From: Pholiota molesta
Taxonomy: Eukaryota; Basidiomycota; Agaricomycetes; Agaricales; Strophariaceae
Direction of reading: 5' to 3'
NCBI GenBank assembly: GCA_014925825.1
Contig: JACGCK010000058.1
Span: 186,001 to 250,000 of the forward strand
DNA: 64,000 nt
How positions within the stretch are numbered: the stretch's first letter is position 1; each line of letters begins with the position of its first letter. Under the pieces are notes generated by a model that was given only the letters and a program-made list of their open reading frames with translations, was not told the DNA's origin and did no database searches. A program made the translations under genes and the position numbers. Of this stretch, positions 42,194-62,622 are shown one piece after another.

Positions 42194-42569
42194 GTAAGTT
42201 CCATTCTTCCACACTTTCATCATGTCGCGTTAAAAATAGGTTAGATCACCCGGTCAAGATTTTACCATATCCGAAGGGACACCCCGTCCCCCAACCTATA
42301 GATGCATTTAATGATATCATCAAACTTCCCCAAGGGTATGGGGGCCTAATAATCTTATCCCCCGGATTTAACTTGAATCTGATATTCCCACGGCCTATTT
42401 TTAGTCTACTTTTGCTTACCCACACTTGTTTTGTAATGCTCTATGATGGAATGTATCTCAATATAATCCTCTAAGCACAGCTATTTCTGTTTTATCCTCC
42501 TTTTTTGTTACATTAATTGGTTCTATTCTGCGGATTTTGGGTCACGGGACTGCCACCTTCCTTATATAG

Positions 42570-43607
42570 ACTTTGGCCTCCAAAAACCCAAATGGGGACA
42601 GTGGCTTACATAAACATAAATTGCTGTGTCCGCGCACATTACAATTGTTTATTTGTCTGTGTTCTGCAGAGTTTCGTGTCACAAGACTGCCACCTTCCTT
42701 ATATAGATTTTGGCATCCAAAATCCAAATGGGGACAGTGGCTTACATAAACATAAATTGTTGTGTACGCCGCATGTTACAATTAATTATTTCTTTGTTCC
42801 AACTCATTTTGTTACCTTGACTTGCCAATGCACATTCTTTTCCTGTATTTTAGTCACCTTGTTTTTGGGTTAGGTGACTTTGTTGTTCAATTCCTTGGTC
42901 CATATGTATTGTGGACATCCACAACCTAAATAGAGAAAGTGGATTACATAATCTGGAAATTGTACCGTACGCCGTATGGTGCAATTACCCATGCCCGTGT
43001 ATCTGTTTCTTTGGGTATGTTGCATGTGACTTTGGTCCATCTTACACTTTTTTTTTGGACATTTTTTTTGATGTGGAACTTCTGCGTTTTTTGGGGTCCA
43101 GGGACGTTGTGCTTGGCATTGCTGTCCTTATTGGGCTGTGGACGTCCACAACCTAAAAGGGAAAGTGCATTACATAAACAAAAATTGTACTGTCCGCCGT
43201 ATGCTACAATCACTGATGTCATTCATACAGGCATGTTGGGGTGACAGTGATCCATTCTCATGCTGATGAGCCAGGGAGGATGTGCACACTTTTTTTTTGT
43301 TAGCTTTGCCGCAAGAATCCTGAAGGTTTGGTTTGGTAAGTAGTAGGCGTTGATTTTAAGAAGTTCTGTTTGTGCTGTGGAGTCGACTCCCTTCATGTAA
43401 AATCTGCCCTACATCAACCAAAAATTGTACTGTACACTGTATGCTACAATTACTTTTGTAATGTCTATATTGTGTTGGTTGCCAGCTTTAGGGAATGTTG
43501 TGCTGTTCTCTGTACGTTTATTGATACAATGCCTCTGCTCTATTTCGACTTGGTGCTTGGTGGTTTTCCCCATTTGGGTTTTTGGCGTCCACAACCTAAA
43601 TGGAGAA
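42570..43607. repeat. Cluster of palindromic elements A (x5) and B (x5)
   Basis: Element A copies at 42619-42646, 42755-42783, 42958-42986, 43183-43211 and 43423-43451: 28-29 bp, ends AATTG...CAATT (one ends CAATC), centre typically GTACGCCGTA. The third copy is an almost perfect palindrome. Element B-like copies at about 42570-42597, 42705-42733, 42908-42934, 43133-43160 and 43568-43607, with TTTGG or TGTGG, centre 'gacgtc' or variant, CCA(A/C)AA, CCTAAA, then G-rich. The first four B copies precede an A copy by about 20 bp ('acagtggcttacataaacat'-like). The composite B-A unit therefore repeats four times, about 135-225 bp apart. No coding exons lie between them. AT-rich spacer. Confidence 0.88.
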
Positions 43608-43668
43608 ATTTGTTTGTTTTAAACTGCAAATGTGCTGCTGACATCGCATAAGTCCCTGCCTTCTGATG

Positions 43669-43676
43669 TATAAATA
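43669..43676 (+). promoter_or_regulatory. TATA box (TATAAATA) of the recombinase-helicase gene
   Basis: Lies 74 bp before the ATG at 43750, followed by a pyrimidine-rich leader (C-run at 43,718-43,735). Confidence 0.6.
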
Positions 43677-43749
43677 CTGGATGCCTTTTTACTCAACTCT
43701 CTGTTCACCCTTTTCCTCCCCCCCCCCTCCCCCCAACCTTTTCCTCGTT

Positions 43750-46700
43750 ATGGCTTCCTCAACATTTCCCACCTTTACCACCGTCTTGGACGATATAACA
43801 TACAAAGTGGACTCCGATGACCAAGGTTATTATCGTTGTCCCTGCCGCAAACATCAGAATTCGCAACCTCCCCAAATGTACGATTGGGAAGGTATCAATG
43901 CCCATTTCACAAGCTGGCTCAATATATCTGTGCAGAAGGTAACTTCAGCACTTTTGCTGGCTTTTCTTTATCTCATATTCGTTTGTTCATACAGCCCTAC
44001 AACGTTCGGGTACATCTCCTTCTTTCTGTCACTCAGGGTGGACACTTATCTTGCCACTCTAGATCCCATTTGAGATTCTTTCTGATCACCTCATTGACAC
44101 CGCCTTGCTCAAGCGCTTGGGGTTGGTTGTGAATCGGACTGCCAAGGTGATGATTTGCACCCACTGCCGCATAGTATTGGCCAAGACGTACTGTGGTTTC
44201 CATATGCGCAAACAACACGAGTTGTCCATCAGCTCGTCCGATGCAGTCGAGCTTCTGTCGACCTTCCATCAATTTGCACTCTATGACAAGCTCTCCTTGG
44301 CACCAAATACCGTCGTTCCTGCTATAGAAGGCCTCGAACCGATGCTCGTCTATACTTGCCTGTTGTGCCCAGCCGCATATGCCAAATTGGATTCTATGCA
44401 GAAGCATCATCGCACACACCATCCCAAAGATCCTCGTCCAGAGACATGGCCACAGAGTATGGGGCAGCAACAGAATCGCAGCACCGCAAATTCCTGGTTT
44501 CGTGTGTCTACCATGGAATTTCGCCCCCCCCGCACCCCATCTGCGGAACTCGTGGCCCAAATAGAGAATTCTATGCAGGCGACTCTCCCCATAGACATTG
44601 GTGCATTGGACGCTCGCAATGTCACTCCATGGCTTAGGGTTACACAATGGCACCTGCACACCAAAGGTTACGCTGCCGCTGATTTGCAGAAAATGGTTGC
44701 TTATCCTACCGTGGGGGAGCTTCCGCATTTGAAGATGGCCGTGCAAGCGTTTTGGGAATCTGCTTCTCAACTGATCGATGCAACGTCTGTGTTGGTTTTG
44801 CAAAAGTTGAATTCGCCCTACATTGAAAAAACGTATGTGATATTTTATTTTAATTGTAGCGTACGGCGGACAGTGCAATTAATCTTCTTTCTTCCAGTGG
44901 AATCACCAACACTCCCTTCCATCACCTTCAAGATCATGATCGAGGGAGAGATTCCTATATTTCCCCCGTTGTTGGATTAGTGGCCATGCTTCTCCGTCCC
45001 TGGGGCGTGTATCCGCTCCATCTTCCTGTTACAGTTTTGACTGCGAGGGATACGCTCGTCGAAGACCTTCACAATCCTGATTCTGCTACGTGGTCCCAAT
45101 CTGTGTTTGGCCTACTCTTTGCGCTCTGGTCCGTCAAGTGGATACCCTTGCCAGATTCTCCTGTCACGGATCCTACCCTCGTTTACTTTATGCTCTCTTC
45201 AATTCAAAAGGATGGCGGGTTTATGGAGCCCAAGCTGATTACCAATATCATTGCACGCTTTCAATACCTGATGCGCCTCGTCTTTCTGCAGGCCATGCAC
45301 GACAACGGGAATATTGAAATGGCAGCAGAGCAGCTTTCGGTCTGGTTCCAAGAAAAGCACGACTCCACCTTCAATTCCCTGCGCTCTCTTCAACACGTTG
45401 CGTCTTCCATTTCGTATTCCACGATCAGTCTTCCCAAAATTTGGTGGATTGACCGTGAACACCACCGATCCCTCCTGTACAAAGGCTATCCGATTCAGTT
45501 CTCCGCATTTCCCGCCATGTTTGCAGCCATTGAGGACGAGATGGTCCACCTATGGCAAGAGGAGCTTCTTTGTGGGCTCCCCCTCAAAGTCCAGTATGGA
45601 AGACTTTATGACGACCTTCAGAATACCAGGCCGGGTTATTCTTTTGTCACTGATGAGCGCAACACGTGTTTTGGCAATCGGATGCAACTCTTGCAGGCCA
45701 TCCTCGACACCCCAGATTTGTATAAACGTTTTGTGGCATACAATTCTGGTGGTGTTATTCGGTGGAATGTTATTGCCTTCCGACGATGGTTGGCCGCCTA
45801 TGCGTCTTTCCAGCGCCTGCAGCTTATGCTGGTGATGATGGCAACGGGCTCTCCCAGTCGCGCAACAGAAATCACTGCACTCCTCTTAGCCAATACCGCC
45901 ACCAATCCTATGCGAAATGTTACCGTGTTCGATACATTTGTGACCATCCTTTGCACGTATCAAAAGACGAGCGCCCTTACTGGAACGGACAAATGTATCC
46001 CCCATGCCTTGAATGGCTTTAGCGCAGACTTGCTTGTTCAAGACCTTGCGATTACCCGTCCTTTTGCTGAAGTCGCCGCTCACCTCAGCTACCCCGACAC
46101 CTCTAATGTTATTCAACTCTACCGCACCCATGTCTTTGTCAACCAAAACCGGCTTTTCGATACCGATGATCTCACAGCGGGTCTTCAAGAATTTACATTA
46201 AAGTATCTGGGCGTCAAGTTGGGTGTTAACGGGTGGCGACATGTCAGTACCGCCTTTCGGCGCAAGATCTGCACGCGCATGGAGGATCTGTACGAAGAGG
46301 ATGAAATGGACAACGTGCAAGCCCTCCAAAGTGGGCACAATCGTCAAACGGAGAATAGTGTCTATGCACTTAGCGCTGATTCGGCTATGGGTGCCCCCGA
46401 AGATCTCCTTCCTAGGTTTCTGGATGCCAGCAAGGACTGGCAGCTCGCCTGTCGTCTTGTCCCAGGTGGGCTCGGGCGCTCCTATATTGATTGCAGAGCA
46501 TCCTCTTTCCAAGTCCTCCTCGATGCTGGCACCATTGATCTTGTACGTGGCCCTTCCCAAAATAGCCATCAGGATGTGCTTGCTGCCATCCATGGTCTCC
46601 GGGCCCATTTCGACCATGCAATGGCCAAACTCCTGGCGCACTTTCCTCAAACACCTCAAGGTAAGGATTTCTCTGCCTATTGCAATTTTATGCCTTATAT

Positions 46701-48543
46701 TGTCGAGTCTCAGTGCCTGTTGCTCCCGAAGTGCCTTTGCCCTCGGCAGACTCAATGGAAGCCAAAGCACTTGGCGTTCTACGTCGGCTGGTGGGCAATC
46801 CAACAGCAGACTGGTCTTGTCCAGAGCAAAAGACGGGTGTTCTGGCCGCCCTTTCCCTGCAAAGGGACGTTATTGCAGTGTTGGCCACGGGATTAGGCAA
46901 GACGATGCTGGCGATCCTTCCTTCCCTTCTCGAGCACCAAAAAATGACCGTGGTGCTTTTGCCACTGCGGTCGTTAATGGCGGATTATGAACACAAGCTC
47001 ACGCGCTTGCAAGTGCCTTTTGAAGTCTTTACTGGCGGTCGTATCCACGGTGAAGCCAATTTACTTTTGGTATCGGCTGATATCTCCAAAGCGGACAGTT
47101 GGCGCCACGAAGCCGCTATTTTAAACGAACGCAAACCAATTGTGCGCATAGTTTTCGATGAAGCCCATATTCCCTTACTGTCTGCGAACTACCGACCTGC
47201 TCTCCGCGACATGTTCCTTCTCCATTCCCTTCCTGCTGGTGTCCAGATTATTCTACTATCGGCAACCCTTTCCCACGCATTGGTTCCCACTCTGATTCGC
47301 GAGTTCGGCCTTTCTGGTTCCCCTCTTGTTCTGCGCACCAACACCAACCGCCCGGAGCTGCAGTATATCTGGCGTGCACCCAGTTCAAGCCAGAAAATTA
47401 TCGAACAAGCCGTCAAGATCGCCCAAGATTATCAATGGTCCCATGAACGGGAGCGCGGCCTCGTTTTTGTTCCTTTTTACGACATGGGTCAGCGCATCGC
47501 GACCCAACTGAATTGTGACTTTTACAGTGGCAACGAGAATACTACTAATGAAGAGCGCCATGCCATGTACAATCGCTGGAACACGGGCGCCGCGCGCGTT
47601 ATGGTTTGCACCTCTGCATTTGGGACTGGTAACGACTACTCCCATACTCGCTTTGTTGTTCACGCAGGCAGACCCTATGAAATGGTCAACTACATTCAAG
47701 AGATCTCACGGGCTGGACGGGATAAGGTCCCTTCGATGTGTATCTTGCTCCCGCAGGTCAAAGACGCCCCAGGCGAGTTTCCTACACCAGACTTTGGCGG
47801 CTTTAAGGCTATGCACGAGGCTCTTCAAGCCCCCGACGGATGTGTTCGGTTTAAAATCACCAGCCACACCGATGCGGTTGGCACCGCATGTGCGGATAAC
47901 GCAGGCAATCAGTTGTGTAATTTCTGCCAGACGCGGTACGCTGCGTCTATCGACGGTGTGGGGTTTCTGGCTAATATTTTTACTATAGCCAAAAGCGTGG
48001 TAATGACGTTTTCGCAGAGGCGTATAATGCTTCCAAAAGAAGGCGCATTGACTCCGACTCCAAGGAAATAGCCTATGTCACACTGTTTCTGAAGCATATG
48101 GATCAACTCGTTGCGGGGTGCGTGGTTTGCCTGGTGAGCAATGAAGTGGTGGACCGCCATTCCCTTCCGCAGTGCTACCATCTTCGCTGTATGCACGCCG
48201 ATGGAACCAGTGCTTTCTTTGCTTGGCGGAAGAAGATCAAATACCCGCCCTCGATCAAGGCATGCTTTAAGTGCCACGTCCCGCAGGGCCCCAATGATAG
48301 CCTCCATCCCACCTTCAGTTCCAAAAGAACGCTTGCAAGTATCACGACGTATTGGCGCCACTTGCGTATGCCCTTTACCATACCCAGCCTTACCGAGAAG
48401 CCGCGCAACGTCATTTCAATACGATGTGGGATAGCGCGGAGGCCTTTGTCACGTGGATCAATGGTCCTATCCAAGCAGGCCATTACACCAATCTCTCTGC
48501 CGTCATGATGTGGTTTGCGGGCCTGGAGAAAGGTCTGGCTTAG
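43750..48543 (+). CDS. OrsD zinc-finger / tyrosine-recombinase-like / RecQ-type helicase fusion
   Basis: About 1,500 residues. Exons: 43750-43938, a 15 nt microexon 43995-44009, 44063-44832, 44898-46660, 46714-47935, 47989 onward. N-terminal OrsD-like fingers: MICTHCRIVLAKTYCGFHMRKQH and YTCLLCPAAYAKLDSMQKHHRTHH. Middle domain (about residues 640-820) has the tyrosine-recombinase order: Arg in TGSPSRATEITAL (near 45,859), Lys in TYQKTSAL, box II-like GWRHVSTAFRRK (46,230-46,265), and GHNRQTENSVYAL with the candidate nucleophile Tyr near 46,366. The helicase has ATGLGKT (Walker A), VFDEAH, LLSATLS, MVCTSAFGTGND and QEISRAGRD, all intact. Zinc-type C terminus: CVVCL, CFKCHVPQ, CKYHDVLAPLAYALYH. 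Near 48,320 the frame must shift by one base, through a short intron or a lesion. The intron at 44833-44897 contains a palindromic element A. Likely the mobilising enzyme of the region. Confidence 0.8.
44852..44880 (-). repeat. Element A inside an intron of the helicase gene
   Basis: 29 bp copy in inverted orientation (AATTGTAGCGTACGG...GTGCAATT), filling almost half of the 65 bp intron and ending 17 nt before its 3' splice site. Confidence 0.88.
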
Positions 48544-48786
48544 TAGATGTCCACGTATTAGACACTCTCTTGCAATGTAGTTGATGTGATCATTTTTTCT
48601 TTGCCATGTCTTTTTGCTCTCTACGTCGGTATGCCAACCTCGTCCATCTGGAGGCCTCCTGAGGAGATAGGCCCCCTATATTCCTTCGCTTGCCATAAAC
48701 TTGAACCGCTCCGTAGCTCCGGCACCCCCACCTATTTAAGTCAATGGCGACGTGCATTTCCAGTTCCATAGCATCCTCTTGACGCC

Positions 48787-49315
48787 ATGCCTTTCTCCAC
48801 ACGCGCCTCTGTTCGTGACATGTTCATAGAGAAAGTCCGCGATTTTGATCGCGTTTATGGCATCGCTGCAACAGAAGAGTCACTGGAAGCTATTGATTCA
48901 CTGGTCGAATATGCGGTACGTGCTTAGGGTTGGTGTGGATACCTTTCTGTATGTTGATCCAGCTATATGTAGTTTCTGCTTGATTTCAAGCCCCAGGAGC
49001 TTGTTGCAGACAGGGACCTTCAATATTGGATAGGTGATCTGATCGGGGCACACTCTGCGGTATATGCTCACCATGCTGAAATCACGGGGCAACCGATGCA
49101 AGACCTCGGCCCTTTCCATGCTGGGTTACAGAAACTGTTGTTCAATGCATCGGATTGGATCTCCCAGACCATAATCGCCTTTGGGGTTCATTCTTTTTCT
49201 TCACTCTTTAGCGTCTATGCTGATGTTCCCTTAGGCAGAAAACTTCTTCGTTCTTGAGGATGAGGAAGAGCCGGGAGTCGATGTTGCTGAGGAAAAGCAT
49301 GTCTCCCAGCAGTAA
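48787..49315 (+). CDS. Small protein of unknown function
   Basis: MPFSTRASVRDMFIEKVRDFDRVYGIAATEESLEAIDSLVEYA, an intron from GTACGTGC to CCCCAG, then ELVADRDLQYWIGDLIGAHSAVYAHHAEITGQPMQDLGPFHAGLQKLLF, a second less certain intron ending CCTTAG at 49234, and AENFFVLEDEEEPGVDVAEEKHVSQQ with TAA at 49313. About 130 residues, mostly helical, acidic tail. A TATA-like 'tatttaag' sits about 50 bp before the ATG. The last exon is partly duplicated just downstream. Unrecognised family. Confidence 0.5.
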
Positions 49316-49601
49316 TTCATCTATTTGCTAGTGCTCACTCGTATTGCATATGTTGGCAAGCTATCCACCGAGCGTATGGTTAATTGCTGTGTCCGGCGGT
49401 CAATACAATTACATTGCCTTTCCAGGGTAGAAACCTTTTCGTTCTTGAGGATGGGGAAGAGCCAGGAGTCAATGTCACTTAGGAAAAGCCTGTCTCCCAG
49501 CAGTAATTCATCTATTCCTAGTGCTCACTCGTATTGCATTTGTTGGGAGGTAGGGTTAATTGCTGTGTCCGGCGGCCAATACAATTAAATCGCCTTTCCA
49601 G
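49235..49601. repeat. Tandem duplication: last exon plus element A, two units
   Basis: Unit 1 (49235-49425) and unit 2 (49426-49601) share 'cgttcttgaggatg', 'gaagagcc', 'gtctcccagcagtaattcat', 'gtgctcactcgtattgca', then element A (49382-49410 and 49558-49586) and 'cctttccag'. The second copy has an in-frame stop in its exon part (GTCACTTAG), so it is decaying. The unit ends exactly at an AG 15 nt after element A. Confidence 0.9.
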
Positions 49602-49654
49602 CACTCCCACGCCGGTGGCTGGGTTTGTTGGCGTCTCAGACAACACTCCCGTGC

Positions 49655-50395
49655 CACGCGTGCAGTGTGCATGCATGCGTGCACGCACCAGGCGTATCTT
49701 GCACGCTCTTTGCACGCAAGTTCAGAAATACTCACGCACAACTCACGCCGCCGAAGTCGGCATCGCCATGTTCCCACGTAGACACTGAGTACTGAACGCA
49801 CATCAAAGCAGTTGTTCTGCATCTTCGCGCGCCGGAATTGCTGGGCACTGTCAGTGGGGCTTAGATGAAGGTGACCACCAGCTCTGGAATCCGTATGATG
49901 GGATTTCTGAGCACTGGATCCATCGAGACCGAGTTGACAGCGATGGTGAACTGGAGGTGAGTTGAGTTCTATGCCTACTTATCAGATGCTGGATGTTTTC
50001 TCAAATTAGGAAGGTCCCAATTACAAGAAAATGAAGAGGGCTACTCCGCCTGTCGATTTGCGACCTCGCCCACGACCTCAGCCGAAGACCAAACGCACAC
50101 GTAAAACAGGACAGTCTTGATCTTTTTCAGGTGGACTTGTCGATTTTTATATTCATAGTCTATGTACATGTTCATTACAAGGCGACTATGTGATTTTATT
50201 TGGTTATAATACAATTTTACAGCCTCCTAAGGCCGTATATCTATTTGATTGGTGCACGCCTACGTGCACGCAACATGTCAATATGTCACGCTCAGCGCAC
50301 GCATCTCAGATAACTATGTGCGCACAAACATGCGCGCACCTTGATTAAAGTTGCACGCACACGCCCGAACTGCACGCTCATGGCACGGCAAAATA
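49655..50395. repeat. Two TGCACG-rich stretches around a small gene
   Basis: 49,655-49,745 and 50,245-50,395 are made of short words such as 'gtgcatgcatgcgtgcacg', 'tgcacgc', 'cgcacgca' and 'tgcgcgcac'. They flank the small coding segment at 49852-50120 about 500 bp apart. Alternating purine-pyrimidine tracts could adopt Z-DNA or serve as protein-binding arrays; both are guesses. Confidence 0.6.
49852..50120 (+). CDS. Partial gene: two 3' exons of a small basic-tailed protein
   Basis: Frame GHCQWGLDEGDHQLWNPYDGISEHW...DSDGELE, a GTGAGT...ATTAG intron (49,956-50,009), then EGPNYKKMKRATPPVDLRPRPRPQPKTKRTRKTGQS and TGA at 50118. The basic Pro/Arg tail suggests nuclear or nucleic-acid contact. 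No start codon is found in frame before an upstream TGA, so a 5' exon is missing or lies further left. It may once have been the 3' end of the preceding gene, before the element A duplication. Confidence 0.45.
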
Positions 50396-50465
50396 CCTGC
50401 GCCCCCTATGCTCGTGCGGGGTTTTAGTGTGTTATCCTATTTACCTATATTTGCACCTTGGTGGG

Positions 50466-50472
50466 TATAAAA
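50466..50472 (+). promoter_or_regulatory. TATA box (TATAAAA)
   Basis: 42 bp before the ATG at 50514, in 'gggtataaaaggcgcc'. Confidence 0.65.
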
Positions 50473-50513
50473 GGCGCCTTTCCCCATCGCTGACATTTGC
50501 TCCATCCCCAAAA

Positions 50514-51175
50514 ATGTCTCTCAAAGACGTGGTGAATAAGTTTAATCGTCAAGCGGCTGGGCGTCCTGTGAGTGACAGAGAAAGCTGTTTTTTTTTTTTT
50601 TGATGCTAAAGAGGTGTTGTAGTCCCACGTTACACCCTTCAAGCAACCCTATTGCGAAGACGACTTTGCAAAGTTGACGTCTGAAGAGGTCATGTTGTTG
50701 TGCCAGGATATTGACGAATGCCATCTGGGATGGGGCTATCTCAAAATTGGACCCAATAGTGTTGTGGGACCTCCTGGCGTTCATGTGCAACCTTGGTTTC
50801 CCAAAGAATATTCCCTTTCTGCCGTCGACCAGTTTTGGGAGCAAACACTTGGATGTGGTTATTATGTGGACAATACTAGCATTGAACATGCAGTCGACAT
50901 TGCTGTTCCCCCAGGGCTTATCAAGCGCGCCAGTCTGGTGCTGGATGCTCAGTCCAAGAACGACTTCAAAATGGTAGAGTACCACTGTCAGTCCAAAGAA
51001 CCCCTTATCTTGGTCGATGGTTTTTCCCGCCTTCACGCCGCCCAGTTGTTGCTATTGGATCTGCAACAAAAATTCGGTGAACAGGAAATTGATTACATGA
51101 TTTGGCTTGCACGCTTCTATGATAAAGGTAGTCTTCTATTCCGAGTTGCCCTCCGATGTACTCATAGCCGCCTAG
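50514..51175 (+). CDS. Small protein with a ParB-like 'VDGFSRLHAA' motif
   Basis: MSLKDVVNKFNRQAAGRP, a GTGAGT...TTGTAG intron to 50619, then SHVTPFKQPYCEDDFAKLTSEEVMLLCQDIDECHLGWGYLKIGP... and ...FKMVEYHCQSKEPLILVDGFSRLHAAQLLLLDLQQKFGEQEIDYMIWLARFYDK, and a final tiny exon ending TAG at 51173. About 195 residues. The stretch L(V)DGFSRLHAA resembles the DGxxR core of ParB/sulfiredoxin-like folds (DGxHRxxAA) with Phe-Ser in place of the usual residues. Activity is not claimed. The larger DGQHR protein at 58580 is a possible functional relative. Confidence 0.55.
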
Positions 51176-51224
51176 ATTCTATCAATAGCCACTCAAGGGC
51201 ACACGAAATGAAGTATATCATGGT

Positions 51225-51917
51225 TTATAAAGTGTAGTTGAGATGGTATGCGTTATTAATAGTAAAGTAACGAAGCATGTCGTACAGCGTTTCTTTGTCT
51301 ATATCTTGCGTTGATGCCATGTGGCGTAGGACATCCACCATGGATGGAATCACAGAGACGAGATCCTCGCGTTTGGGGTTGATCTATCGTACACGTGTGT
51401 GAGAATCATAGTAGGAGCGTCGCACGCAGGTAAGATACCTGTGCTAGATATGCTTCTACGTGGCTTCCATAAAAGGAGGCTTCACCCCACCAGGGCTTGT
51501 GGTACTTGGCGAGGATATGGGTGAGGTGGCAGCAATGGAGACAGGGGTTCATGTTCAAGCAATGTGTCAGTGTCCCTTCGTATTTGAGATCCAGATGAAG
51601 GGCATCGCTCAAAAGAATGTAAAAGCGGGGCACATGCAGAGGCCAACCCTTCAGTCTCGCCATTCCGATCAGATCCAAGCCATCACACTAGTAATTGCCG
51701 GGGTTGGCTAAATAAAATGCAACAAGTGGTGATTACTTACCAATTCGTTGAGCAGTTGCCGCGCCCAGTCTCGCTGTCGAGGTTGTTGTTGAATTGCAGC
51801 CAAACCCATACGGGCACGGGACACTAACATGTAGACGAGAAGCTGCGCATCTTCATGGGTGGTCGCTGCAGTTCCAAGTAGTTGAATGGCAGGCATGGGT
51901 GGGGTGGAGGGATACAC
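51225..51917 (-). CDS. Unknown protein, minus strand
   Basis: MYPSTPPMPAIQLLGTAATTHEDAQLLVYMLVSRARMGLAAIQQQPRQRDWARQLLNEL, intron GTAAGT...TTTAG, then DLIGMARLKGWPLHVPRFYILLSDALHLDLKYEG...CLHCCHLTHILAKYH...GSHVEAYLAQ, another intron, and INPKREDLVSVIPSMVDVLRHMASTQDIDKETLYDMLRYFTINNAYHLNYTL. Around 195 residues, helical, no known domain. A 'tatatagt' TATA-like box lies about 20-45 bp upstream. First of three tandem minus-strand genes (51225-53104). Confidence 0.55.
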
Positions 51918-51975
51918 TATCGTCGTATTACAATACTATATACCCTTTTCGCGACGCCAAATAATGGCAAATAGG

Positions 51976-52678
51976 CTAGGCAATACGGGTATTGGCCATG
52001 CCCACTGCTAATTCTTCTATCTGCTCCAGTACGTTCTTGTAATCTGGGGTTGCCTGATTCCTTTCCCCTAGCAGGTCGTGGACGATATCTTCCATCTTGT
52101 CAAAAAAAGCCGATGGCCGCGGATACTCGGCTTTTGCCACCTGGAAAACCAGGGTGTCAGTTTGGCTTCTATCGTCATCTATCCAGAATGTTACCTGTTG
52201 GCGATATATACCAAGTGCTGTTTCCACAGACCACGTTTGGTTGCTTCCCAATTTTGCTTGTTGCCTGGAGGCACTCCACCACTGATCATAGTAGTGTTCC
52301 AGAACGCGACTCTGATCGTCTTCGGTCGTGGTAAGGTCAATGGATGTGAGGTCCATCGGCGACCTTTCGTTCTCAGCGACGTAGAATGCCAAGAATCCAT
52401 CTACAAGCAGGTGAGGAATAGTGACAGGCCAGGTACGCAAGTGACAAATCGCAATGATCCTTGTGGTGATGTTCTAAAACAATGTCAGCTCGTTGTCCAT
52501 CTCCTCTCTCACAGTGCTGTCTTACCATATCCTTCATCAACCGATACATGAAGAGAGCAGATGTATAGCCATCTAAACCTATGCTCTGTTGCCGATAGGT
52601 CAATGCTGCGCGGAGTCGCGATGCAAAGAGGAAGAGGAGGTCTTGTGCATCGCTGTGGTTTTTGAGATCAAACTCCAT
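51976..52678 (-). CDS. Unknown protein, minus strand
   Basis: Two exons: MEFDLKNHSDAQDLLFLFASRLRAALTYRQQSIGLDGYTSALFMYRLMKDM, a 51 bp intron (GTAAGAC...TTTTAG) in phase 0, then NITTRIIAICHLRTWPVTIPHLLVDGFLAFYVAENERSP...KVLEQIEELAVGMANTRIA. About 210 residues. It contains 'LLVDGFLAFYVAE', loosely recalling the DG core seen in the gene at 50514, but without an Arg. Family not recognised. Only 58 bp from the next minus-strand gene start. Confidence 0.6.
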
Positions 52679-52738
52679 TGATTGCAAGAACGGCGCAGGG
52701 GGAGGGAGAGCAAGGATGGATGTGGGCTATGTACGCTG

Positions 52739-52746
52739 TATTTATA
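52739..52746 (-). promoter_or_regulatory. TATA box (TATAAATA) overlapping the upstream gene's stop codon
   Basis: About 61 bp before the ATG at 52678. It overlaps the TAA of the chromodomain gene, showing how tightly the block is packed. Confidence 0.5.
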
Positions 52747-53104
52747 CCCAAATCTTGTTGTCTGCACACGCATCTAAGCCGACAAGATGCTGCACGTGTT
52801 TGTAAGGCTCCCAAGTGCTCTCCCCGAAAGAGTACCCTTTCCATTTCACCAAGTAATATGTCGTGTTTTCTTCGGGGAGATACATGCAAGAGTAGACAAA
52901 GTCCACGAAGAAAATCCCTTTGGCATTCAACTTCCTTTCGTATGCGGCCCACGCTTTGCCTTCGTTGATTTGGTGTTCGTGTTTGATAGTATTATGTTCG
53001 GGACCCCATCCCACCCAGGACACCAGGTATTGGGCTTTGCGTCCTGGTTTGGTAGCGAGGGGCTTTATCTTCGACACGGTGTGTTTCCGGCTTAAACAGC
53101 GCAC
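52742..53104 (-). CDS. Protein with two chromodomain-like segments
   Basis: C-terminal segment YYLVKWKGYSFGESTWEPYKHVQHL is a textbook chromodomain core (aromatic cage residues Y, W, W/Y in the usual places). An N-terminal segment VSKIKPLATKPGRKAQYLVSWVGWGPEHNTIKHEHQI has the same V..I...YLV.W.GW...xNT layout, so two chromodomains seem to lie in tandem. About 120 residues are visible. The true start is upstream: the frame is open through ASRRWGRVRCLSRKHTVSKI to an intron acceptor near 53,150. Chromodomains bind methylated histone tails, and in mobile elements they can direct insertion to heterochromatin. Element-specific role inferred. Confidence 0.75.
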   Translation of the reverse strand: MRCLSRKHTVSKIKPLATKPGRKAQYLVSWVGWGPEHNTIKHEHQINEGKAWAAYERKLNAKGIFFVDFVYSCMYLPEENTTYYLVKWKGYSFGESTWEPYKHVQHLVGLDACADNKIWV

Positions 53105-53368
53105 CCGTCCCCAGCGTCGGGAGGCATAATGACGGGGGGCTGCAATCTACACTGCGCATCAGCCGAGGTGTCTATGAGGCGAGCAGCAACATACCATAGG
53201 ATACGGGAGAAGGTGGGCAAGAGATAGGCTAAGATAGACCCCATAGACGCAGTTATATAGTATTCAGATGTTTTCATATGTTTGCTCTGCATAAATTGTA
53301 ACAATGCAATACGACAGGGGGATTCTTGGTGTTGTGGAGATACCGCAGGCGCGCACAATAAATTACTG

Positions 53369-54100
53369 CATTTAGGTTCTGGACGTCCAAAACCTAAATG
53401 GGGATTCTGCATGTTCTGGAGACACCGGCAACGCTGCCAATCATTCCGACCTACTATCCAAGTCTGTGTTAATTGCACTGACCGCCGTACGTAGCAATTA
53501 ATGAATTACCCCGTTTAGTTTTTGAACGTCCAAAATCTAAATGGGGATGCTGTGTTTTCTCTATTTCTTCTGTGTTAATTGCACTGTCCGCCGTCCGTTG
53601 CAATTAATTGATTACCCCATTTAGCTTTTAGAGAGCCAAAACCTAAATGGGGACAGCTAGGCGCTCAGTGATGTAGCCCAGGATCGTGACCTTGTACGTC
53701 GCATTTGTGTAAGAAAGTCGTCCTCATTCGACATAGGGCACGTTGGTTGGGGACATCCACCCTCCATCTGCTGAAGCTATCCCTGAGTGCTCCAACCGTC
53801 CGCCTTTGTATGGGGAACCTCTCTCTTCCATGGCATTGTAATTGCACTGTCCGCCGTACGTAGCAATTCATCAATTACCCCATTTAGGATTTCGACAGCC
53901 CACAACCTAAAATGACAGCACAACCTAAATGGGGACAGCTAGGCGCCTAGTAATGTAGCCCATAATCGTGACCTGGTACGTCGCATTTGTGTAAGAATGT
54001 CGTCCTCGCTCGACATAGGGCATGTTGGTTGGGGACATCCACCCACCACCTCCTGAAGCAACCCCTGAGTGCTTCAATCCTCCACCTTTGCTCTCTCTTC
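53369..54100. repeat. Element A/B cluster with tandem duplicated units
   Basis: Element A at 53471-53499, 53577-53605 and 53840-53868. Element B at 53369-53403, 53509-53546, 53615-53652 and 53878-53934 (the last carries an internal 15 bp repetition of one arm). In this cluster A precedes B by about 10 bp, the opposite order to 42.6-43.2 kb. Units 53577-53839 and 53840-54100 are a tandem duplication: after B both continue 'cagctaggcgc', 'cgtcgcatttgtgtaaga', 'ttggttggggacatccacc'. The best B copy (53369-53403) is nearly perfectly symmetric around GGACGTCC. Confidence 0.9.
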
Positions 54101-54140
54101 AACGACATATATTTGCTTGTATTTGCACCTTTCCAATATT

Positions 54141-54148
54141 TATATAAA
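54141..54148 (+). promoter_or_regulatory. TATA box (TATATAAA)
   Basis: 59 bp before the ATG at 54207. Confidence 0.6.
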
Positions 54149-54206
54149 GGGCCTCTGGTTTGCCCATCTTTCTTCAGTTCCCCCCGCCCCCACGGCTCCT
54201 TCCCTC

Positions 54207-57200
54207 ATGGCGAACAAAAAGGTGTGTCCGTGCCCGTTGGACATTGGCAACGCCCAGCTCACAGTGCTTTGCCTCCAGAAAACCGCTGTTGCCCAGGTGT
54301 TTTTGATCCCATAGTTTGCATGTTTGGCAGAGTGCTGACCTCCCATGTGCAGCATGTTTCTTCCGATATCGAACTTGTCGTCGATCCCAAAGGGTTTACC
54401 GACGACATCAAGAGCGACACCCGAAAAGCCTTTATGGGCTTAGCCAAGTCCAACTTCGCCACCGACGATGACCTGCGTCGTGGACCCACGCTTTCCACGC
54501 GTTCCATCAACGGCAGGCCCATGACCAATAAACGCCGGGCAGACTTCATTCGCGTTTGTGGAGGTGATGCTCAAGATTTCACCAAGCCTCTGACCGATCT
54601 CTCTCGCTTTGATCCTGCCCATGCCATCGTAGTGCTGGTGGAGCCTCGCTTTGTGTCTCGAGAGTCGCTTGTCCAGAACCCTTTGGACGTTCACGACCTC
54701 AAGACATTGCGCCACGTCGTCTGGGCCGACAAGGAAAATTTCTCTCTGTCGAAGGCCACCGTTGCCAATGGGAATGGCCGCATTGATATCTGCCGGACTG
54801 TTCTTGCATCCAAGCTCAACACACGGCGCGTTGAGATTGAGAAGGCTATCGCCAATGAGCCCTCCTCCAGCCCTACGGCTGCTCGCCTCAAGAAACAGCT
54901 CGACGAAGTCTATAGCAGCCTTGAACGTCCGGCGTCCTGGCTGGTGGCCTTTTACGATCTTGGTATGTGCTTACCCTTCTTTCTCACCAGCTGGACTAAC
55001 TCTGCGCTTATTTTTAGAAATGATTGAACAAAGCCCCAATGCCTTGCAGATCAAGCTTGGACTTGCTGCCAATTCACCGGTCTACCAAGTGCCTGACAAT
55101 GAAGACGAAGCACTCGACCTCATCCTCAACAACATCGGGGATCTCCCAGCCGATGAGCGACTGCAACAGCTGAAAAGCCATACGAGCCTCAGTTTGGTTG
55201 CCTGTGGTCCCAAGCGTTTAACGCGCGTTGTCAACAACACCTCTATGATCCTTCAGGTGATCGATCTTTATCGCTACAGCAAGTGCTGGTCTGGAAAAGG
55301 GTTTTGCGCCAACCAACTCTATGATTGGCGTACTGGGGTTTCGCCCGTGAGTCGGTCATAATGCCCATAGGCAACACGTTGTACTGACCACGTGCCTCCC
55401 TAGTTCTTCGAAGCCATTGTAAACCAAGGCCTCCAGCTGTTGGACTATCTCTCGTCCAGCAGTCAACCTCCGAAAAAGGCGAAGTGGAGCATTCCTGCAG
55501 GTGTGCTAGACCCGCGCCCTCCCCGTGATGGTATCTTGGACGCCGAGTTTTTCACCATAGTGTCTGAATGCTACGTGGAATTCCTCTATCCTTGCCGGGA
55601 TGGCTATGGTCTCCCATCCGAGTTTTTGGAGACTGGAAAACCATTGTATTCCTCTGCCTATGCTGCCTATACGCAAAAGCTCTTAGCGTCGGTGGGGACG
55701 TGGTGTGAGCAGCGGTGCCAAGCGGCATCTGATGACCCCGAGACCGCCGGGATTTTCGCGACTTTGCCATTCCGCTTGGAGTATGCCTTGACCGTCGGTC
55801 TCTTTAATTCTGTCGAATACGGCCTTCAACTTCCAACCCATCCTCCCGTCCTCTGCAAATTCTTTGTCATCGACTCCTGTGACTATTTGGCGAAAAATCG
55901 TCCGTTCCTCATGGAAATCTTCCGAATGTTGGACCCCTCTTTTCCCCTGTTCTTGTTGTGGCGCGAAGCGCAGAGTTCAAAGATCGACCCACAGACATGC
56001 TATGTGAATGGATACAAAAGCAAGACCCTGGCATACCTGCAGTTTTTGTGCTGAACAAGGTATGGCCTTGACTAGTTGTCTTCACATTTGTGTACTAACA
56101 TATGCGTAGTGTCTCTCGATCATCTTCAAACATCGCAGCTTGGCATTTACCAAGATGGCCACAGTGGGGAAAGTACCGGACATCCCTAAACCCCATGCTT
56201 TGTATGGCAAACCCAAGAACGGGGAAGATACCGCTAGTACAACCGCAGCGCCTATGTGGAGCGCTCAATACTTGGCCTTGCTTGATGTTATGAGAGAATG
56301 GCGCGACCAAGAGGTCAAAGGCACTCGCATAAAAGTTCTGACCAGCCATCCCAGGTTTTTGCATCGACCCCAGGATTTCGTGTCTCTGCTTCAGAAGTTG
56401 GAATATGGTCCTGAGCTCTTCGACATGCTGCGGACGACCGCCGTTCACTGGTCGGCATTCTCGCCATCCCAACTTACCGCTCATCATCGCACCCTGGCTG
56501 GGTATCTCCTAAACTCGCTCTATGTGTATCATAGGATTGGTCGCGCCTATCTTGCGACCAACGAAGTGTGGTCTCTACGACAAGAACTCGAAGACTACTT
56601 GGAGCAGGTTATAGATGGCTTCCATGGCTTGTGGGATGGGCTGGTTGAGCAGCTGGGCGGTCTCAAAGAACCTTTGTCCCAAACGGCCGGATCTGTCCCC
56701 CGCAAGCTTGTGTTGGAGAGCGTGGGCAAGAGGATGGAAGGCAAGATGCATGAAGTCGTCACACACATTGCCCAGCAACTTCTCAGCCGGGACGTGGGTG
56801 CTATACCACTCGAAGATGGCGGGCTTGGGTTGCCACGGCGGCTCTATTCAGCTGCCATGGTCTTGTTTGAGGTAGGCTTCCACTGTGTTGCCCCACGTGC
56901 GGTCGTTGATCACGGGTTATTAGGAGATGGCAGTGGCATCCTGGAAGGCGCAGACGATGTATACGGATACAGACCTCAATCGGATGGCCAAAGTCTCTAG
57001 CGAACGCAGATCCAACCTCGTTGAGCGCCTACCCCTCCCAGCTTCTTTCCAGCTCGCCCCCCGGGAGGATATAGAGGCGTATTATGACTCCTTATCACCA
57101 GACGACCTAAAGCGAATTCCGGTGTCTGGGGCTGGTTCCAAACGTGAACAGGCCAAGATCTTGCGCGCCCAGAATCTGCTCAAGAAACGAGTGAACAGGA

Positions 57201-58472
57201 TGAATCTTGCCTTGGGGAGATCGTCCGAACGCGTCGGTCTTCAGCATCTTTTGGACGAAGAACATCTTGAAAAAATTGGTAATATCATATTCATCCTTAT
57301 TACACACAGTACACACTAACAATGTCTTCTATGCAGAGGAGGTGGAATACGACGATCAAACCCATCCTGGCTATTTTATCAAGAGGCTTCCAGGCACACC
57401 ACCTGGAACCCAGCAGTTCATTGTACCCGATGATGAGGAACGCCAACAATCCTTTTCGGAGAGTGAGGACGACGAGGGTTACCGCGCATCACAGGAGCAA
57501 GGGGACCGCGGCGACGATGATGAAGGCGAGCACGCATCCCAGGCGCACAGCGACGACGACGCGCAGGCATACGGCGATGACGACGAAGGCGAGCGTGCAT
57601 CCCACGACGAAGGCGAGCGCGCATCCCAGGCGCACAGCGACCATGACGGCGATGGCGACGACGGCGATGACGAAGGCGATGACGAAGGCGAGCGCGCATC
57701 CCAGGTGCACATCGACGACGACGACGACGACGACGACAACGACGACGACGATGACGATGACGGCGACGATGACAGCGGCGACAATGACGAAGGCGAGCGC
57801 TCATCCCAGGCGCACAGCGACGACGACGCAGTGGCCCGCGCATCGCAGGAAGCTTTGGCCGGTGACCAATCCGAACACGACACTGAGCAGCAAAGTGAGG
57901 AGGACAATGCTTCGCAGTGTGAAGCAGACGGTGTTAGCGTGGGCACCACAGTGACCAGTAAGTCCACGCTGATCTGTGATCCTTGTCCATTGGCTGACCG
58001 TGGCCGACAAGGTCTTAAACGCAAACGCGCCCTCTCCAGCAGTTCTGGACACTCTGCTCAACGCAGGCGGGTGGAGGGTTCTGATTGTGGTGACCGCCGT
58101 ACGCAGCAATTAACCCAGGCACGCAGTGCCGTGGTCACTCCGGTGGAAGCGGATATGGCAGTGTCGGTCGCTCCAGATGCCCCCAAAGGACGGAAGATAG
58201 GACATGCGGAGGCGGGTACGCCTCCATCCACCTTTCCCAATGCGGCTACCCGGGACTCCAGTCCGGATTTTACTTTTGATGGCTACGATGATACCACGTT
58301 GGTCGAAATGGCCAGTTATACGGACAATTTACCAGCCAGTCTCTTCAAAGGTGTTGTTCCCGCCGGGGTTGCCGAAATGCGTTGGACGTCGTCCCCTCAA
58401 GCAGGTCCCTCGTCCTCCACTCCACTCGCAGCGCCAACCTCGCGGGCACTCAGGCCACGCCATCATAAGTAG
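54207..58472 (+). CDS. Giant multi-exon protein with acidic repeat tail; probable frameshift
   Basis: MANKKVCPCPLDIGNAQ...KTAVAQ (54207-54296), a phase-0 intron, then HVSSDIELVVDPKGFTDDIKS...; further introns at about 54,961-55,018, 55,347-55,403, 56,060-56,109, 56,874-56,923 and 57,281-57,336. More than 1,200 residues. Between about 55,930 and 55,990 the frame that leads into the next exon (ARSAEFKDRPTDMLCEWIQKQDPGIPAVFVLNK, then CLSIIFKHRSLAFTKMATVGK) is shifted relative to the exon start (FRMLDPSFPL), which itself runs into TGA at 56,052. This is a one-base lesion, or two adjacent genes. The tail (57,480-57,840) repeats GERASQAHSDDD with long Asp runs. Exon 58,083-58,111 is element A read as coding sequence. 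No known enzyme domain. Confidence 0.55.
58083..58111 (+). repeat. Element A inside a coding exon
   Basis: GATTGTGGTGACC...CGCAGCAATT, 29 bp, one mismatch in the left arm. It is translated as roughly DCGDRRTQQL in the acidic protein tail. Confidence 0.85.
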
Positions 58473-58530
58473 TATTTTGTCATATCTCTAATTAATGCAA
58501 GCGCTTCCTATTTGAAAATATGAGATTGGT

Positions 58531-58537
58531 TATAAAA
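58531..58537 (+). promoter_or_regulatory. TATA box (TATAAAA)
   Basis: 43 bp before the chosen ATG at 58580, which helps choose that start over the upstream ATG at 58520. Confidence 0.6.
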
Positions 58538-58579
58538 CACGATAGGCAAACCCAATGTTCCGTTGCAAATTTTCCCAAC

Positions 58580-61500
58580 ATGCCCCACAGATCTTCCGAC
58601 GATCTTGCCAACTTTCTCTCCCATTATGCACAGCTCCCCGCTCCCACCTCCCTGGCGGACTCAGTCGCGAGCCGACCCCTTGCCCCTGAAATTGTGCGGG
58701 CTCTCGCTTCCGCCAGCAGCATCGATTCGATTGAATTCTGGGTTGATCAGTCGGTTATCGCCTACTACATAGGCTCACTTCATCAGCTCGTGCCCTCTGA
58801 GCATCAACGTGCTTTGGACATCGAGGCAGTGCACAGTCTCAAGCTGAGCTTGGGCGATGAGCCCACCTCCTTCATGCTCTCATCGCCGATGACTGTAGTG
58901 TGCCTCCAGCCTGAGCGCACTAGCCATCAGACCAACGCCAGAACTGCCAGCCGGGCCATGGTCGTCATGGACAAGTCAGTCCAGTTTTCAATCCTGGACG
59001 GACAGCACCGTACCCGTGCCATGCTCGAGTGGTGTTTGGAGCGACAGATTCCGGAAGAATATCAGTTTTGGCTGTTACGGGTACTTCACCCCGGTGCGTT
59101 GTTGACTTCCTTCGCATACTGCAGTTGTGCCCATCTTGTCTCTTTGGTCAGGCTTCCTGGATGCGAACCCACTTCTGTTGAAGCACTTCATTAATCACCA
59201 AAACACCCAGCTATTCCAAAAGCCGACACACCCCGTAGACGACCTCTTCACTCGCGCGAATCTCCTGGTCAACTCAGGCCAACAACACCAACCCCGTTTC
59301 TCCAACTACTCTCCCCACGATCAGTCTTCTTCTGTTGTGGAAACCGACGCCAGACGGGCTGTCACTTCCATTCTCCACTGCGGTTATGTCGTGGAGGCGA
59401 TCGTCAAGTCCGACATATTCCACAAAGACGACCGCCTATGGCGCCAGCCCGACAGTGCTGGAGCAGAGGGGAGGGAAACGATCGAGTTTCTGAGAACATT
59501 GGTGTCGTATCACGTCCCAGAGGCACGCTTCCACTATTTTGTTTTCTGCGCCTCATCTGACCTTGGTGTGTCAGATCGCCCAACTTGTCATATTGGCTGC
59601 GGCAGAGATGACGGCGCGTCTGACCGACCTCTTCGGCAAGCCTTTCATGCTGTCGGATGTGATAAATCTCGCGGAGACTCAGGGTCGTCGTTTTCAAGAA
59701 AGCGGTTCACTTGAGTGGTTGCATAAAGCGGCGCAAGCGGGAAATCATCCAATCGATCTTGACATGTTTGCCAGCATCGAGAGCATTGTCAAGAACGTTG
59801 CGCTCAAGCACAATGTTTGTCCTGTGGTATGCCCCCTTGCGCCTTGATCTCCCAGTAACCGTTTTTCTCATTCTTACGTCTAGCTTTTTCATCCTGGGCT
59901 TGTTATCGTTCCCCTGTCGTCTTCAACGAAGAAAAAATTAGCTCTGCCTGTCTGGTTGAACGTTCACAGGGACGTTTTGAGAGCGGTAAGTGCATTGTAT
60001 CTTTCCCTTGTTGTCAACTCAACATGCGGTTAGATTCTCATCATCGTCTGGGGCGTTGACCATGCGCAAACCCTGATGCAACCCATGTCTGCGAGCGTTA
60101 CTGCGCCATTACAAGCCCTTCGCAATGAAGCGCACCTTCGCAATCCCACTCTAAACATGGAGCATTGGTTTGACCGAGTACGTGTTCGTTATCTTCAGCG
60201 CCATGCTTCAGCGCTCACCTATTGTAGGTCATGAATCTCATTACCTTCCCACGGACCACTGCTCTTTATCAGTCATGGCGTGCGCTCAAGGAAGCGTTTG
60301 CAACGGAGGCGGGGGTCACTCCAAGCTCTTTGGGTTCAGCGTTCAGGGGTGTGGTTGGAAATTCCAATAAGGTGAACTTGTTGTGCGCCCAGGTTGTCCG
60401 TCTAATGGAAACCAACAACGCATGGTATAACCTCATCCACGCTGTCGGCATCATTCATCCGGGGGACCAGCTTGGCTGTTCCGCTGGCGCCACCAAATCC
60501 TATCACATGCCCCCCGTCTCTCCGCACGATGCAGAGCTGGCTGCGCTTCAGATGGAACGCAACCGCGTCGAACGTCAGGACGCGAACCAGATGAGGGCCG
60601 AGGGTCGGCAACAACCCCAGACGGCGGCCGCCGAGCATGCTGCCGAACTCGCCAAGGCAGAGCTGGAGCGCGTCCGTCGAGAGACGGAGATAGGCGAAGA
60701 AGACGCGAAGGTGAAGAGGGACACACTGGACGCTCTCCAACGTCGACACGAGGAAGACACCGCCGCCGCCGCCGAACAGTTGGTCGCGGCTCAACTCGCA
60801 CGCGATCAAGCCAGATCGACCGTGGCCGCCGAGTTGCGCGACCTCCAGGACGCACACGAGGCGCGTCAAACCCAGATCACCGAAATTCTTCGGAAGGTGA
60901 ACGACCAGGAGAAGCTTGCTCTGTACTTTCGAGGTGGGAACGACTATAGCAGCGACCCCGACTTTGCTGAACTAAGCGCTGAGCTGGTGCACATTGACGC
61001 CCAGATCGCAGCACTTCGCAACCGCGCCCGCTCGGCGGAGCCTGTCGTCGATCTGGACGAGATCGATATCACTAGCTTGGAGGATCCCGATGCCCCTATC
61101 GCATTTCCGCTTCCGGCCCAGACCATTCTCAACCTCTCCGTTCTCAGATCCTTCGACCGCTCTCCGGAACCTGCTTTTCGCCTCCTAAACGCCTATTTAG
61201 CACTTCCAAGTTCTCTCAAGAAGGCATTCCTGTTGGACGGACTGAACGAACGTCTGGCAGAATGGGCCCAGTTGCTTCTTTCAGGTGGGCGGGAGGCACC
61301 CAACGTGTCTCGAGCAACAAAGCGCAAACGAGCTACCCCCTCTTCTGATGAGGATGGATCGATGTCTCCACAAGCCACCGATGCCTACAACCAACCATCT
61401 TCCTCCCAGCTTGGGAATGACCAGCAACCATCTTCCCAGCAGACCAGAGTTGAGAAGGACCCGCCATCCTCCTCTCGCACTTCTGCCCATCCCCGACGTA

Positions 61501-61607
61501 CGACAGGCATACTTTCGTATAAACCCACTTATGTTCCTCCTAGTGATATGTATGGGGCCCCCGCCGCGGATGACGCTGACCATGATCTTGCCAATTACAA
61601 TCGTTAA
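58580..61607 (+). CDS. DGQHR (ParB/DndB-like) protein with long coiled coil
   Basis: MPHRSSDDLANFLSHYAQLPAP...; motif VQFSILDGQHRTRAMLEW (58,980-59,035) is the DGQHR signature of ParB/DndB-like proteins. Introns at about 59,095-59,150, 59,511-59,570, 59,827-59,882, 59,990-60,034 and 60,178-60,225 join into one frame ...DVINLAETQGRRFQES, ALPVWLNVHRDVLRA, ILIIVWGVDHAQ, VMNLITFPRTTALYQSWRALKEAF. A charged, Ala-rich coiled coil follows (EHAAELAKAELERVRRETEIGEEDAKVKRDT, 60,540-60,900), and a Ser/Pro-rich tail. Length about 890 residues. Stop TAA at 61605-61607 lies inside an element A copy. DndB/DGQHR proteins in bacteria belong to DNA phosphorothioation systems; here only the fold is suggested. 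Nuclear role likely. Confidence 0.65.
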
Positions 61608-62622
61608 TTGCAGCTTACGGCGTACGTAGCAATCAGCTTAGGTCGTGTGGCGTATGTAGCAATGAATAGTCTGCAGTTCACCCAATAAATCACTCCTTCT
61701 TTCACGCTCGCTAAGGCTGGACACGAGTCAAGCTAACTCGCAGGTACTTGTGGGTTGAACTGTGAGAATACCTGCGGGTAAGCTGACCCGCGAGTCCGGG
61801 TCACTCGTTCCTACGGGTAGACGCGGTTTCAGGTTTTGGATTTTCAATTCTACGGGTACCCGCGCAAGTACTCGCAATTTTTATTTATTTATTTGCCAGC
61901 CAGGAGCCCAACATTTAGTATATCCTCGAGAAATGCGAAACAACCGGCAAGAGTCGCTTGGTAAGCTGGTTCCAGAACCAGCTTACCAAGCAATCAAACT
62001 CCGCATGAATACCAGAACAATCGCTGTACGTATGGATCATACCGTATCCCCCGTAGACAAATTGTATTCATTACTTTATATAATACATTCAATTCTGTTC
62101 ATGTGTTCTCAAAGATGGCACCTCCTCGAGAGGTGGCATCTCATTGTTATCAAACTCAGAACAAGTACTTACTCGCAGGTATACCTAATTCCCACGCCGA
62201 AGATGCTGCCCGCTCTTGTCCATTACAAGAATAATTGCAGCTTACGGCGTACGTAGCAATCAGCATTAAGTATTAGGTCTCTTTTCTTGTGTTGTGATGT
62301 ATGTAGCAATGAATAGTCTACAGTTTACCCAATAAATTGCTCCTTCTTTCACGTTCGCATGTTTGACATGTACGCTGTTCATAGTCATAGACTACAGCGC
62401 GCCTTCCGCTAGCAGGTCCCTACTCGCTTACGAATTGCCACGGCGAACAACGAACTTCCCCATCTTCTCATCTGATGATGAGGATGCATTCTTGTCCCCA
62501 CAAACTGTAGTTGCCAACTACTAGCCATCTTTCTCCCACGCTGCGAATGACGAGCGTCGAAGATGCTGCCCACTCTTGTCCATTCCGAAGAATAATTGCA
62601 GCTTACGGCGTACGTAACAATT
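61606..62622. repeat. Element A (x3) and decayed copies of the gene's 3' end
   Basis: Element A at 61606-61634, 62233-62261 and 62594-62622, all of the 'agcttacggcgtacgta' subtype, plus two half copies ('gtatgtagcaatgaat' near 61,650 and 62,305). The DNA before copies 2 and 3 ('gaagatgctgccc(g/a)ctcttgtccatt') is a diverged version of the last codons of the DGQHR gene ('gacgctgaccatgatcttgcc'). 62,455-62,560 also resembles 61,330-61,420. After copies 1 and 2 both continue 'caatgaatagtct(g/a)cagtt(c/t)acccaataaat'. Three successive, decaying duplicates of one gene end plus element A. Confidence 0.85.

Follow-up and report, generated by a model that had tools for sequence, protein, structure and literature searches.

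The window analysed here is a 64,000-nucleotide stretch of the genome of Pholiota molesta, and its right part contains a copy of a repeated element that we call family A. The element carries a dispersed 29-bp dyad-symmetric motif, A. We predict that A is an element-specific operator or silencer site, putatively bound by a protein of the element, and we give this reading an even chance of being right. An element-encoded protein would bind A as two subunits, at about 24 sites across the non-coding spacers, and occupancy of these sites would repress the element as a whole or organise it, much like stoperators in mycobacteriophages or SPBRE in SPbeta. As binder, the most promising candidate is the OrsD / tyrosine-recombinase (YR) / RecQ-helicase protein encoded by the first gene of the element; binding by this YR-helicase is the simplest guess because the element that carries A encodes a YR-fold protein. 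We infer the binding of a protein to A, the identity of the binder and the repressing or silencing effect. The effect of binding may be silencing, self-recognition or chromosome-end protection.

A scan of the window with the arms of A alone (at most one mismatch) found 15 places, compared with 3.19 expected and a maximum of 8 in 100 shuffles. Fourteen are copies named in a preliminary description of this DNA, and the other, at 13569, lacks the core and is unrelated. That description had listed 15 copies, and all of them are present where it placed them, 14 with a length of 29 bp and one, at 42619, with a length of 28 bp, which is why the latter is absent from the arms-only matches. It had counted a single inverted copy, but when orientation is assigned from the central base (C for plus, G for minus) six of the 15 are inverted. 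In window numbering, the plus sites are at 42619..42646 (29 bp long in the C90 and C505 copies of the element), 42755..42783, 42958..42986, 43183..43211, 43423..43451 (with the core CACTG), 53471..53499, 53577..53605, 53840..53868 and 58083..58111 (decayed and 3 bp shorter in the C363 copy). The minus sites are at 44852..44880, 49382..49410, 49558..49586, 61606..61634, 62233..62261 and 62594..62622. The array had been listed up to 62622, but it extends beyond the window as far as the unit does; a unit holds 24 sites, of which one is decayed in the C363 copy. No copy lies left of 42.5 kb, as had been reported, because the element itself starts at 42345.

We scanned one assembly (65.6 Mb, 625 contigs) with a pattern of the arms plus a CGNCG core. 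With at most one mismatch there are 80 places per strand, with positions listed for about 50, and a reversed control pattern gives 0. The pattern AATTG-N7-CGCCG-N7-CAATT occurs exactly at 51 places, on contigs C90, C363, C411, C479, C505, C533, C580 and C598, and 51 of 51 fall within copies of the family A element. The preliminary description had named genome-wide copies unrelated to these genes, or membership in a family of miniature inverted-repeat transposable elements (MITEs), as the outcomes that would speak against its view, and the exact places show neither. Among the roughly 100 matches listed for this exact pattern and its variants, at least five one-mismatch places are on other contigs (C24, C103, C109, C124 and C223). 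At two mismatches there are 117 and 139 places compared with 26 and 28 for the reversed control, so a chance background exists at that level. Ten of the 12 contigs bearing telomere repeats have no exact match. In viral contigs the exact motif was found in 62 stretches with one match each, which we take as chance, and a search of viral contigs for relatives of the YR protein gave none that could be confirmed.

Each A site contains two halves with the consensus AATTGYANYGTMCG around one central base, with a conserved AA on one side. Sites were compared in a detailed table of 23 sites, 20 of them distinct, in which the 42619 site was taken from the C90 copy and the 58083 site from the window; the site designated 38925, a 30-bp form, was left out. 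In a column profile of 21 sites (without 42619, 58083 and 38925), the columns within the 29 bp carry 1.46 bits each and those of the flanks 0.15, which makes by multiplication (29 x 1.456) about 42 bits per site. To the right of the centre-C orientation there are two further A residues, in 19 and 16 of the 21 sites. The core is asymmetric: position 12 is C in 14 of 20 distinct sites and position 18 is T in 14 of 20. The dimensions are compatible with an 11-7-11 split (two 11-bp arms and a 7-bp core), a division chosen by us.

The two arms do not covary. The preliminary description had suggested that changes in one arm are matched in the other, a suggestion that fails when left and right halves of the 20 distinct sites are re-paired at random and arm matches recounted: 201 were observed, compared with 201.5 +- 4.9 after re-pairing. 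Because random re-pairing gives equal symmetry, the symmetry reflects a consensus shared by two half-sites rather than base pairing, and the lack of covariation fits two independent half-site contacts. By its sequence, then, the symmetry of A is that of two like half-sites, as for a dimeric protein.

A sites avoid coding-like sequence. We used a coding score trained on four open reading frame (ORF) stretches from the unit itself, in place of an earlier strict-threshold map that called 5% of the unit coding. The mean score at A sites is -0.78, compared with 2.10 +- 0.64, and among 1097 circular shifts only the unshifted one was that low (1/1097). Five sites are before the first gene, one (44852, which separates coding part one of the helicase gene from coding part two) is probably intronic, and further sites are in intergenic gaps, including one between converging genes (the sites at 62233 and 62594). 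The 61606 site overlaps the DGQHR gene model described below, supplying with its first two bases the end of the TAA stop codon. The five sites ahead of the first gene form modules with a second, longer palindrome. This palindrome, approximately CCCCATTTAGG..TGGACGTCCA..CCTAAATGGGG, adjoins several A sites as modules at 42551-43606 and 53357-53916.

Conservation of A can be compared with that of its surroundings in 14 neighbouring site pairs that look duplicated. In 12 of these the flanks are 0.45-0.62 identical and A is 0.79-1.00 identical; the remaining two have flank identities of 0.98 and 0.70, and random flank pairs have 0.44 +- 0.04. Most flanks of these pairs retain some likeness, far below that of A, so A is preserved as its surroundings diverge.

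The first gene of the element (plus strand) encodes three parts. An OrsD zinc-finger part is at 44105..44980 (PF12013, E 4.3e-07, above its cut-off), a YR part, recognised by its catalytic residues and predicted fold, at 44980..46896, and a RecQ-type helicase part at 46680..48071 (DEAD, 1.7e-14; Helicase_C, 1.2e-13). The YR part has R294, K329, K338, H453 and Y462 in 19 of 19 alignment rows and R420 in 18 of 19, and fits the catalytic pattern R..E/D..K..HxxR..H/W..Y. Its predicted fold, compared by VIA-align, is nearest to Xer/Cre recombinases. On this predicted model the first gene encodes a tyrosine-recombinase-type fold and catalytic pattern. A Pfam scan of the YR part found no family at E <= 1, and hence no match to DUF3435, which we take to be the Starship captain family; a missing match here is no proof. 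The RecQ family model matches the helicase part at 1.8e-37, below its curated cut-off, and the best solved relatives in the PDB are BLM, RecQ1 and WRN. The tyrosine-recombinase fold normally binds palindromes about the size of A. A YR-helicase encoded by the element had been guessed in the preliminary description, and a tyrosine recombinase fused to a helicase is indeed present.

The family A element (42345..64000, plus strand) runs past the window to the end of the contig, and its copies, compared by blastn of the window against seven other contigs, are about 99.2-99.9% identical. The unit is 40,589 bp long, as read from window 42345-57912 and C363 1-25021. Its left end, CCTAATAATCTTATCC (42345..42360, plus strand), is sharp: the start is shared by all seven genome copies (one is offset by one base), the flanks are unrelated, and the first C is common to six of the seven. 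The junctions read CCT-AATAATC in six copies and TCT-AATAATC in one. For four junctions the uninterrupted target could be read (window 30224, 30063 and 49908, and C363:23663; two of the four in family B, below), and CT is at the join in all four and CCT in three. No second element end and no target duplication were found.

The element is located at contig ends. For two insertions into family B we looked for the distal target flank, and in neither case was it found joined to anything, although the 625-contig assembly may lack it. Assembly limits allowing, the element therefore seems to replace the chromosome end rather than to sit inside the chromosome. A new left end comes directly after a truncated unit (42345-49908) in C598; C505 has one after the distal part of another unit. 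The C411 copy stops at the equivalent of window 43706 and continues directly into TTAGGG-type repeats. The C363 copy begins at the equivalent of 57913, and TTAGGG-type repeats extend from C363 25022 to the contig end. These two copies that end in telomere repeats are partial and do not include the helicase part of A. The telomere pattern occurs in the assembly as TTAGGG on the plus strand, with 40 forward matches and no reverse ones across 12 contigs, which may reflect how the assembly was made. Judged from these sequences, the first gene appears to be a telomere-linked-helicase-like locus that behaves as a mobile element attaching to chromosome ends.

Copies also differ by local events. Window 49549-49933 is duplicated in C479 and C580 (this 385-bp segment includes the A site at 49558), and C363:23288-23663 is duplicated in C505. 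A 9.2-kb insertion in the unit at C533:253300-262537, with 1.06-kb direct repeats that are 99.25% alike, is empty in C363 and is probably a young long terminal repeat (LTR) retrotransposon.

A second family, B, has the same plan, without A sites in the parts read. A truncated copy is in the window at 28025..31214 (plus strand), and its left end is at 28025. Seven copies start CTATCCATATT, with six distinct flanks; one flank is common to the copies on C598 and C411 (264 kb), which may represent a single insertion. In C411 the copy is preceded by CTAATAAT, giving the start CTAATAATCTATCC, which is close to the family A start CTAATAATCTTATCC. After the left end, CTATCC or CTAATAATCTATCC, there are 199-bp tandem repeats, and the longer copies (C411, C334) add an OrsD-like zinc-finger / YR / helicase gene. 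The YR-type gene of B is 22-28% identical to that of A, and in C411 it is about 30 kb from the telomere repeats. Sequence comparison identifies B as a second, diverged family with the plan of A. A-like dyads were absent from the 16.2 kb read in C411 and from the other stretches scanned, and a search of four B stretches for dyads of 26-32 bp at 85% gave none. At 80% there are 4 dyads over 16.2 kb of B compared with 31 over 40.6 kb of A, and none of the four is A-like. Two families in one genome are a small sample. The B copy in the window is cut at 31214, where a third sequence starts (ATTAGTAGTAGCTG..., 31212-31300). C598 and C411 have this sequence on the left side of B too; it is possibly another element with its own end.

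The preliminary description had proposed A as a recombination site or a binding site of an element protein. The second part stands as a putative binding site, given exact matches in one family, a dyad of two half-sites and an encoded YR-helicase; the DGQHR protein, also named there, is a possible binder for which the evidence points neither way. The first part fares less well. In favour of A as the crossover site of the tyrosine recombinase of the element, with two 11-bp arms around a 7-bp core, its length and dyad plan resemble those of dif/lox sites, its core is asymmetric as noted, and the recombinase has R, K, R, H and Y in place. YR sites of the dif/loxP type are about 28-34 bp long, with inverted arms and an asymmetric core; unlike these, A has 24 copies in mixed orientation and no exchange was seen. 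A check of whether junctions fall inside A, as the preliminary description advised, found none of nine breakpoints within a site. All 50 site-to-site intervals that could be compared in other copies keep order and orientation (4 in C411, 10 in C479, 4+2 in C505, 5 in C90, 4+7 in C598, 5 in C580 and 9 in C533/C363), and one of them holds the LTR insertion. Copies this similar have had little time to rearrange, so the collinearity test is fair and not strong. The left end of the element is 274 bp from the nearest A, and if all 24 sites were active in their mixed orientation, the element would be expected to break up. Breakpoints are nearer to A than random positions (mean 378 vs 868 bp, significance 0.0064, with nine breakpoints; 391 vs 871 bp, 0.011, with eight), but this nearness weakens to 0.045 and 0.09 against non-coding-like positions. 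We consider a crossover role quite unlikely.

A role of A in replication, partition or stability, similar to iterons or a centromere, in an element that spends time extrachromosomally is unlikely, although it is the likeliest of the alternatives. The five-copy module array adjoins the left end ahead of the first gene, A sites also occur between converging genes, and the gene for a long-tailed DGQHR/DndB-like protein is close by; but no extrachromosomal form was seen, though the tools used could not reveal one, a spread over the whole unit is unusual for an origin, and the family matches of the ORFs scanned include no ParB or replication-initiator family, only a sub-threshold match to DndB/DGQHR. 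The non-coding placement would also suit a host-factor site (for a transcription factor, insulator or telomere-position silencer) multiplied by the element. Such a site predicts occurrences elsewhere, and the exact matches are confined to the element and absent from most contigs with telomere repeats; weaker sites elsewhere are possible, given the one-mismatch places on other contigs, and we regard this explanation as improbable. The inverted arms could form a hairpin in RNA or single-stranded DNA, but complementarity extends to only 8 to 13 of 14 arm positions per site, the arms lack covariation, and an Rfam search of 27000-64000 had no match. The hairpin or RNA reading is disfavoured by the missing compensatory arm changes and the negative Rfam search, and is very improbable. 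As a multi-copy palindrome of fixed length, A might be a tiny MITE-like mobile element, but there is no exact match outside the family A element and a listing of flanks, inspected by eye, gave no duplicated flank of constant length. The confinement of all exact places to family A makes a MITE highly implausible.

The operator or silencer reading has parallels in phages. The repressor of mycobacteriophage L5 binds about 24 dispersed stoperators, according to the part of the literature consulted (PMC5712189). Like L5-type stoperators, A comprises about 24 related sites through one mobile genome, mostly intergenic, and the stoperator consensus varies between phage groups in the same account (PMC5712189). 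The many related, mostly non-coding sites in one element family give A the features of a dispersed operator. Stoperators as described there are 13-bp, asymmetric and in one direction, and are bound by a phage repressor in bacteria, whereas A belongs to a fungal element, spans 29 bp with dyad symmetry and occurs in both orientations. In SPbeta, dispersed intergenic SPBRE sites are reported to be bound by MrpR, a repressor with a tyrosine-recombinase fold (PMC10516654). A is likewise a repeated intergenic element, and its candidate binder has, like MrpR, a tyrosine-recombinase fold, here a predicted one. The SPBRE motif is given as 15 bp, and MrpR as having lost catalytic residues, whereas the fungal YR keeps R, K, R, H and Y.

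Several observations weigh against this reading. At 61.6-62.6 kb three A sites are flanked by converging genes; a simple promoter operator would be superfluous there, which suggests more than promoter control. The orientation of A is mixed, unlike that of L5 stoperators. The catalytic residues lost by MrpR are retained in the YR part, so a pure repressor role is not implied, and the roughly 42 bits per site exceed what one dimer should need for specificity in this genome. Most flanks of the duplicated-looking pairs exceed random identity, so the likeness of neighbouring sites is partly due to recent descent. The nearness of breakpoints to A, at the values given above, may reflect a loose link between breakage and A-rich spacers. 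Family B has a like gene, yet the parts of it that were read lack A sites, which means that even within this one genome the system is not general.

Fungal telomere-linked helicases have been known since the 1990s, and we know of no clear reason for their position at chromosome ends. The first gene resembles telomere-linked helicases (Ustilago maydis UTASa/UTASb, Fusarium TLH regions, Magnaporthe TLH) in its RecQ-type helicase, chromosome-end position and truncated copies, and shares the OrsD domain with those of U. maydis, as far as the cited accounts describe them (PMC10532341, PMC12857005, PMC8381367). Unlike known loci of this type, the present one has a unit of about 40 kb, a constant left end, a YR part and 29-bp sites; the accounts cited, in the parts available, mention no recombinase part. 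Our literature search, which had preprints and most subscription journals outside its coverage and a last query too broad to exclude such a report, gave no account of a recombinase part in telomere-linked helicases or of dispersed dyads in such loci. Taken singly, telomere-linked helicases and dispersed operators are known; under the same coverage, we found no precedent for a chromosome-end element that combines a YR part with a fixed attachment end and a family-specific dyad. Starship and Crypton elements have a YR gene near one end, and Starships also carry large multi-gene cargo. Family A differs from both in that no second end or target duplication was found, the helicase is fused and the element is at chromosome ends.

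The constant left end at many sites and the helicase-fused recombinase-type part suggest that, at least here, these loci are mobile elements and colonise chromosome ends that are broken or short. A wider proposal, which we hold as doubtful, is that fungal telomere-linked-helicase loci are giant DNA elements that join a fixed left end (CTAA...) to chromosome ends by means of a recombinase-helicase, with head-to-tail addition, and that a family can carry its own dispersed-dyad code, which lets the recombinase-helicase recognise, silence or shelter the element that encodes it. If true, this would be a eukaryotic counterpart of phage stoperator immunity. The family-specific dispersed dyads offer a direct handle for testing protein binding, silencing and attachment.

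Other genes are present in the window and unit. A DGQHR/DndB-like gene at 58520..61607 (plus strand) was modelled by hand with six exons and 934 codons including the stop; the DndB match (E about 4e-06 to 1.3e-05) is below the cut-off. Its DGQHR/DndB-like N-terminal part is joined to a long, probably coiled-coil tail. A search for relatives found none for the first exon at E 0.001, and the spliced part matches only the record of the window itself. A chromodomain (E 1.3e-13) is in a short ORF within the unit at 52742-53104 (minus strand). Outside the element, three closely similar short sequences at 5855, 17481 and 19698 look by eye like tRNA genes.

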